A stretch of DNA of 64,000 nt, from assembly GCF_000186345.1 (NCBI RefSeq), contig NC_014962.1:4740450-4804449 (forward strand). Direction: 5' to 3'. The first letter of the stretch is position 1; each line of letters opens with the position of its first letter. This document shows, piece after piece, positions 49,990 to 50,432 of the stretch. Source of the stretch: Isosphaera pallida ATCC 43644 (GTDB lineage Bacteria; Planctomycetota; Planctomycetia; Isosphaerales; Isosphaeraceae). A model generated the notes under the pieces. It did not search any database, was not told where the DNA came from, and saw only the letters and a program-made list of their open reading frames with translations. A program made the position numbers and the translations under genes.

Positions 49990-50432
49990 TGCGGCCCGTG
50001 GGATTCGAACCCACAACCAAGGGATTCAAGGGCCCCCGCGTTTCCACGGGGCTTGGACTATCTCATCCTCCCTCATCCGACCCTCTGGGTGGGAATCAGG
50101 GAGGCTGGGCGCTCGCGGCGGGGATTATGGTTTGGGTCTCACCCCGCTAGTCTCTGAACCTTCCCGGCGACCGGACGCCCCGCCGGGCTTGGCTGCGGAT
50201 TGCCGTGTCGAACCGTCGGACGTTTTCCCTCTCACGCGTCGCTCGGAGAACCACGCGACCGGGATCGCAAATCGCCGCGATGGAGTTCGAGTTAGGTTTC
50301 CCGCAATTCACCCAGTTCGCGCGCGGAGGTTCCCCTCCGCCGCCACCTGGACCCAACTTGCTCAACCGAAGTCGGTCGGATGGGATGGGTCGGTTTGATG
50401 AGTCCCCTGCTCTGCCGTTGAGCTAGAGCCGC
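49990..50432 (-). tRNA. tRNA with CAU anticodon (Met or Ile2), interrupted by a group I intron
   Basis: Exon 1 is 50432-50398 (35 nt) and exon 2 is 50026-49990 (37 nt). Joined, they give a standard 72-nt cloverleaf. Acceptor stem GCGGCTC pairs with GGGCCGC (one U-G). The D-arm is GCTC-AACGGCA-GAGC. Anticodon stem GGGGA pairs with TCCCT around loop CUCAUAA. The variable loop is UGGUU and the T-arm is GTGGG-TTCGAAT-CCCAC. The discriminator is A and CCA is not encoded. Anticodon CAU can be elongator tRNA-Met or, after lysidine modification by TilS, tRNA-Ile; the three G-C pairs typical of initiator tRNA are absent. The 371-nt gap between exons carries a group I intron core. Splicing between nucleotides 36 and 37 restores the tRNA. 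Confidence 0.9.
50027..50397 (-). ncRNA. Group I intron (IC3-like) in the tRNA anticodon loop
   Basis: 371 nt, no internal protein gene. Conserved core pieces in order on the minus strand: P AATTGCGGGAAACC (50308-50295), Q AATCCGCAGCCAAGCC (50201-50186), R TTCAGAGACTA (50158-50148) and S ATGAGATAGTCC (50066-50055), with GACTA/TAGTC forming P7. P2 is GCGGAGG-GGAA-CCTCCGC (50340-50323), P6 is CCCGGCG/CGCCGGG (50187-50163) and P9 is a GGAA-capped hairpin (50051-50034). GNRA loops on P2 and P9 fit subgroup IC3. Exon 1 ends in U and the intron ends in G, as the group I mechanism requires. About 90 nt between P and Q suggest an enlarged P5 extension. P1 pairing is not settled. Confidence 0.9.

Follow-up and report, generated by a model that had tools for sequence, protein, structure and literature searches.

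How does Isosphaera pallida, with 47 tRNAs in its published annotation (PMC5352709), read the codon AUA? The locus considered here lies in a 64-kb stretch of I. pallida DNA, called the window below, in which ARAGORN run without introns called zero tRNAs. An earlier note had proposed that a tRNA(CAU) gene on its minus strand is split by a 371-nt group I intron. The coordinates of that proposal proved exact, and we investigated which tRNA the gene encodes, where its splice sites lie, how far the cell may depend on its splicing and how widely such introns occur. Positions are those of the window, and all features are on the minus strand.

The split gene and the fold of its intron

The 5' exon of tRNA-Ile2(CAU) (50432..50398, 35 nt) carries the 5' strand of the acceptor stem, the D arm and the 5' half of the anticodon arm; the last three bases of this exon are C-A-U. 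The 3' exon (50026..49990, 37 nt) begins with A37 and A38 and supplies the 3' half of the anticodon arm, the variable loop, the T arm, the 3' strand of the acceptor stem and the discriminator A; CCA is not encoded. Between them lie the 371 nt of the intron (50397..50027), whose first base is directly 3' of anticodon U36 and whose last is the terminal (omega) G. Joining the exons across the predicted junction (...CTCATAATCCC...) gives a 72-nt RNA with a complete cloverleaf, called as tRNA(cat) by ARAGORN, that has a seven-pair acceptor stem, the anticodon loop CTCATAA and a five-pair anticodon stem spanning the junction; as the earlier note had described, the anticodon arm exists only after joining. 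The 5' exon, adjoining the intron, recurs in identical or near-identical form in about 40 Isosphaeraceae genomes. A promoter scan gave no sigma-70-like candidate near the gene, although such scans are weak for planctomycetes.

A search with the Rfam group I intron covariance model (RF00028), the check that the earlier note had proposed, matched 50378..50034 over the full model (1-253), scoring 59.8 bits (curated cut-off 50 bits; E 1.2e-12); this was the sole Rfam match above threshold across the window. The folding energy of the precursor is better than that of 100/100 dinucleotide shuffles (z -3.4). The P, Q, R and S elements, P7, the preceding U and the final G, all claimed beforehand, are present as a complete set, and in an alignment of 38 homologues the core helices P3, P4, P6, P7 and P8 form, together with P9.

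P1 is built on the internal guide GGUG (50347..50344), which pairs with C34-A35-U36 and intron base 1 (50400..50397). Rfam places P1 wrongly (its match starts at 50378) because L1 of the I. pallida intron is enlarged to about 50 nt; homologues with a short L1 put the guide at GGUG. P2 (50319..50343) is a hairpin with a GNRA-type loop and double changes at several pairs, P3 joins 50315..50309 to 50111..50105, and the pairing of P4 (50305..50300 with 50199..50194) is invariant. The enlarged, variable extension of P5 (50296..50203) covaries, and P6 with its P6a hairpin (50158..50193) shows C-G to U-A exchanges at several pairs. The guanosine-binding helix P7 (50152..50148 with 50060..50056) is invariant in 38/38 homologues, with R and S matched by RF00028. 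An extra hairpin, P7.1 (50118..50147), is located between P7 and P3; it was placed from the 38-homologue alignment, as were P3 and the hairpins P8 (50067..50104) and P9 (50034..50051). P9.0 (50054..50053 with 50029..50028) positions the predicted terminal G at 50027. No homing-endonuclease gene was seen within the 371-nt intron. The Ile2 intron of one relative (G006, L027) is 416 nt long, with an insertion in P6.

Related genomes yielded 41 same-site introns; Isosphaeraceae contributed 40 of these, and the homologues are the 38 of those 40 that were aligned in anchored blocks. Over the 76 predicted pairs, 98.1% of cells are canonical compared with 92.7% when partners are shuffled, and both sides change in 25 pairs, whereas shuffling gave 13 on average and never more than 19. 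Neither the observed canonical fraction nor the double-change count was reached in any of 500 shuffles, a comparison that somewhat favours the fold, since the structure was predicted from that same alignment; the splice-site counts are direct. In P1, the C-G and A-U pairs and the splice-site U.G are invariant (38/38), while the pair with intron base 1 is C-G in 33 homologues, U-A in 3 and U-G in 2. The P9.0 pair 50054/50028 is A-U in 29/38 and G-C in 9/38, a change that identifies the terminal G as 50027. Together, the U.G in P1 and the compensatory change in P9.0 fix both predicted splice sites. A single junction satisfies the rule of a U before the intron and a G at its end (U/...G/, slashes marking splice sites). 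The junctions and isotypes suggested by intron-aware ARAGORN break this rule and contradict the covariation, and were rejected.

Splicing, decoding and the identity of the tRNA

Taken together with the copy number given below, the sequence leaves us in little doubt that the sole tRNA-Ile2(CAU) gene harbors, between U36 and A37, a putative group I ribozyme that would splice itself out, whereupon TilS would yield an AUA reader. In the precursor the exons would be pre-paired as the anticodon stem and the remaining cloverleaf, and the guide GGUG, pairing with CAU and the first intron base, would create the U.G at the 5' splice site. A guanosine bound by P7 would cleave there, and the freed end of the 5' exon would attack after the terminal G held by P9.0, joining the exons. 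TilS would then convert C34 to lysidine, and tRNA-Ile2, charged with isoleucine, would read AUA. The splicing reaction, its efficiency, its need for a cofactor and the dependence of the cell on it are what we infer from this arrangement.

It is conceivable, but in our judgment unlikely, that, with gene and intron as set out above, the ribozyme cannot splice without help from a host protein. Helpers are required by some group I introns (PMC3984707). The RNA is also elaborate, with its enlarged L1 and P5 and its P7.1, but its core is complete. Furthermore, the tRNA introns of Azoarcus and cyanobacteria self-splice in vitro, which argues against such a need.

The split tRNA is tRNA-Ile2, the lysidine tRNA that reads AUA, and not a methionine tRNA. 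In the I. pallida genome (G000), 5,472,964 of the 5,529,304 bases belong to the chromosome, sizes equal to those published for strain IS1B (5,472,964 + 56,340 bp; PMC3072084). This genome has three CAU tRNAs, namely an intact initiator Met, an intact elongator Met and the split Ile2, and the best E. coli match of the spliced form, at 79% identity, is an annotated tRNA-Ile with the loop CTCATAA. An Rfam tRNA search identified 47 intact tRNA genes above the cut-off plus two weak half-matches, which correspond to the split tRNA-Ile2 and to a second split gene, tRNA-Lys(UUU). The intact set includes initiator Met, elongator Met and Ile-GAU; intact Ile2 and Lys-UUU are both absent from it, and an intact second gene for the same tRNA, together with lack of expression of the split locus, is what the earlier note had named as counting against its reading. 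This genome also contains three consecutive low-scoring tRNA-like genes (50.7, 39.4 and 30.3 bits; L106, G000:C2:2598900-2599432), of which one has an unusual anticodon; they may be what is left of a tRNA array carried by a mobile element.

Because Ile2 is single-copy and lacks an intact version, AUA decoding should depend on splicing. The earlier note had suggested that translation as a whole would depend on the ribozyme if the CAU tRNA were single-copy. Ile2 is indeed single-copy, but AUA is rare (3/240 isoleucine codons across nine ORFs in the window), and the dependence narrows to AUA-containing genes.

With AUA so rare, selection on its decoding could be weak, and the locus might be a decayed Ile2 pseudogene with a dead intron, AUA being read by another tRNA. 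We regard this as very improbable, as the exons and core are kept, with compensatory changes, in some 40 genomes from about 20 genera, none of the 47 intact tRNAs is an alternative AUA reader (0/47), and the genome has one gene for TilS, whose known substrate is Ile2. That the intron is real but bounded by another junction, making the tRNA Gln, Leu or Arg, has a negligible chance of being right: intron-aware ARAGORN gives Gln(ctg) or Arg(ccg) at these loci, with Gln or Leu calls too, but the CAU junction alone combines the U/...G/ rule, the P1 U.G and P9.0 (38/38 homologues), intact Gln, Leu and Arg genes are already in the genome, and in E. coli the nearest match is the tRNA-Ile gene described above.

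Distribution and relatives of the Ile2 intron

A split tRNA-Ile2 with the intron after the anticodon and both halves readable is found in 40/45 Isosphaeraceae genomes, and in a forty-first (G016) it lies in pieces at contig ends. No intact Ile2 was detected in the 45 genomes with up to three mismatches allowed; each candidate inspected turned out to be the split gene or an elongator Met tRNA. Recognisable Ile2 halves were not found in 4/45, three of them (G007, G018 and G038) assemblies that are 64-77% complete and the fourth (G015) 96% complete in 620 contigs, and assembly gaps are a likely but unproven explanation. Elsewhere in the class, outside the family, intact Ile2 genes are common. The 40 Isosphaeraceae introns form one clade in the tree (support 100/99), within which intron groups mostly track genera, consistent with vertical descent. 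As it is free of an endonuclease, the intron is probably immobile and vertically inherited within the family. A planctomycete of another family (G056) has a same-site intron of a different type (L038), so that introns have probably entered the Ile2 site on more than one occasion.

Public genomes were scanned for the tRNA half followed by sequence other than an intact anticodon arm, a procedure whose counts are lower bounds. The matches listed are from Isosphaeraceae (such as Singulisphaera acidiphila and Paludisphaera soli) and otherwise mostly from gammaproteobacteria. The gammaproteobacterial Ile2 introns (Lysobacter, Dyella, Rhodanobacter, Woeseiaceae and others) share the tRNA, the identical site, the guide and P7.1 with those of Isosphaeraceae and group with them against other planctomycete tRNA introns, but they are shorter (226-321 nt among those measured) and form a separate clade. 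Overall, Ile2 introns from elsewhere make up a second group in the tree, and both groups are separate from the Leu, fMet and U33-site introns of planctomycetes, with the deepest joins unsure because of long branches. By strict complementarity, P7.1 is present in 86/86 of the non-family Ile2 introns listed and in 38/40 from Isosphaeraceae, the remaining two looking like G.U variants; it was seen in 0/18 of the other tRNA introns compared. The hairpin is common to Ile2 introns of Proteobacteria and of one verrucomicrobial and one actinomycete record. The Ile2 intron of L198, whose record bears the name of a halobacterial archaeon, is nested within those of gammaproteobacteria; the record is probably a misassigned bin.

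Other anticodon-loop group I introns occupy different tRNAs or positions, and the planctomycete ones are without P7.1 and branch apart. Among planctomycetes we observed introns in Ile2 after U33 or in Leu(UAA) after U34 (L041, L049, L047, L048, L055, L057, L059), as well as initiator tRNA-fMet genes split after U33 by introns of 645-654 nt (L050, L242) with an open frame reminiscent of the cyanobacterial fMet intron endonuclease. In distant planctomycetes, RF00028 matches fall in apparent tRNA-Arg genes (L237, L238, L246, L247) and in an apparent tRNA-Asn (L241). Group I intron matches were also seen within 23S rRNA-like sequence (L005 and L013, in G082 and G144).

As generally described, the intron of Azoarcus sp. 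BH72 pre-tRNA-Ile(CAU), a member of IC3, has the same insertion point after CAU, a GUG-type guide and the U.G pair; it is about 205 nt long and is not known to have P7.1. The likeness extends to the same tRNA and a group I core; compared with this description, the I. pallida intron is longer (371 nt), with enlarged L1 and P5 and a P7.1 hairpin. The compact IC3 fold, with no P5 extensions and no P7.1, is not that of the I. pallida intron, whose enlarged P5 and P7.1 make it a poor fit to the published description of IC3 introns, from which P5(a-d) is absent (PMC11835236).

The Azoarcus tRNA-Ile intron is a textbook case (PMC3984707), and 36 genomes with fMet or Ile2 hidden by group I introns have been reported, Acidovorax and Burkholderia being named (PMC8450103). 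Judged by description, the tRNA-Ile2 introns of these betaproteobacterial hosts are likewise group I and hide Ile2 from tRNAscan-SE. With site and mechanism already published, the I. pallida intron is therefore not a new kind. The earlier note knew of no description in this lineage; for Planctomycetota this stands, in that a literature search missing most subscription journals found none and the Isosphaeraceae genome papers (PMC3072084, PMC5352709) do not mention introns, but same-site introns occur in many gammaproteobacteria and the lineage-level novelty is modest.

A second intron, in tRNA-Lys(UUU)

The sole tRNA-Lys(UUU) gene of I. pallida (G000:C2:2333077-2333475, which is L002:1433-1831, minus strand) is likewise split, here between U34 and U35, by a group I intron (325 nt) that differs from the one in Ile2, with the group I intron feature at G000:C2:2333152-2333406 and CTT/...G/TTAA junctions. 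RF00028 gives this intron 38 bits in I. pallida, and 57.2 and 54.1 bits, above the cut-off, in relatives. It is without P7.1 and belongs to a different intron lineage from the Ile2 intron. The split-Lys 3' junction is found in about 36/45 Isosphaeraceae genomes at up to two mismatches, a count in which a few may be other sequences, and tRNA-Lys(UUU) is intact in four genomes of genus g18. In one genome, two split-tRNA-Lys 3' halves lie about 6 kb apart (G003:C272:12698-19033). The literature search, with the coverage given above, yielded no bacterial precedent for a group I insertion in tRNA-Lys(UUU).

We consider it likely that reading of AUA across Isosphaeraceae, and probably of AAA in most genera, would depend on ribozymes, with single-copy Ile2 and Lys(UUU) split by different endonuclease-free, vertically kept introns, and that Lys(UUU) is a new bacterial insertion site. 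For I. pallida, the count of tRNAs rises to 49 compared with the 47 of the published annotation, which missed Ile2, and the split Ile2 accounts for the apparent inability of this organism to read AUA. In several phyla, introns of one P7.1-bearing structural type sit at the same site in tRNA-Ile2. While this kind of intron is known elsewhere in bacteria, here a whole family appears to carry it without an intact spare. In Isosphaeraceae a putative self-splicing intron looks fixed in an essential gene, with no mobility genes, so a hot-spring species that can be cultured and is moderately thermophilic would allow tests of how far a host depends on such an intron and of how 'neutral' introns are kept or lost.
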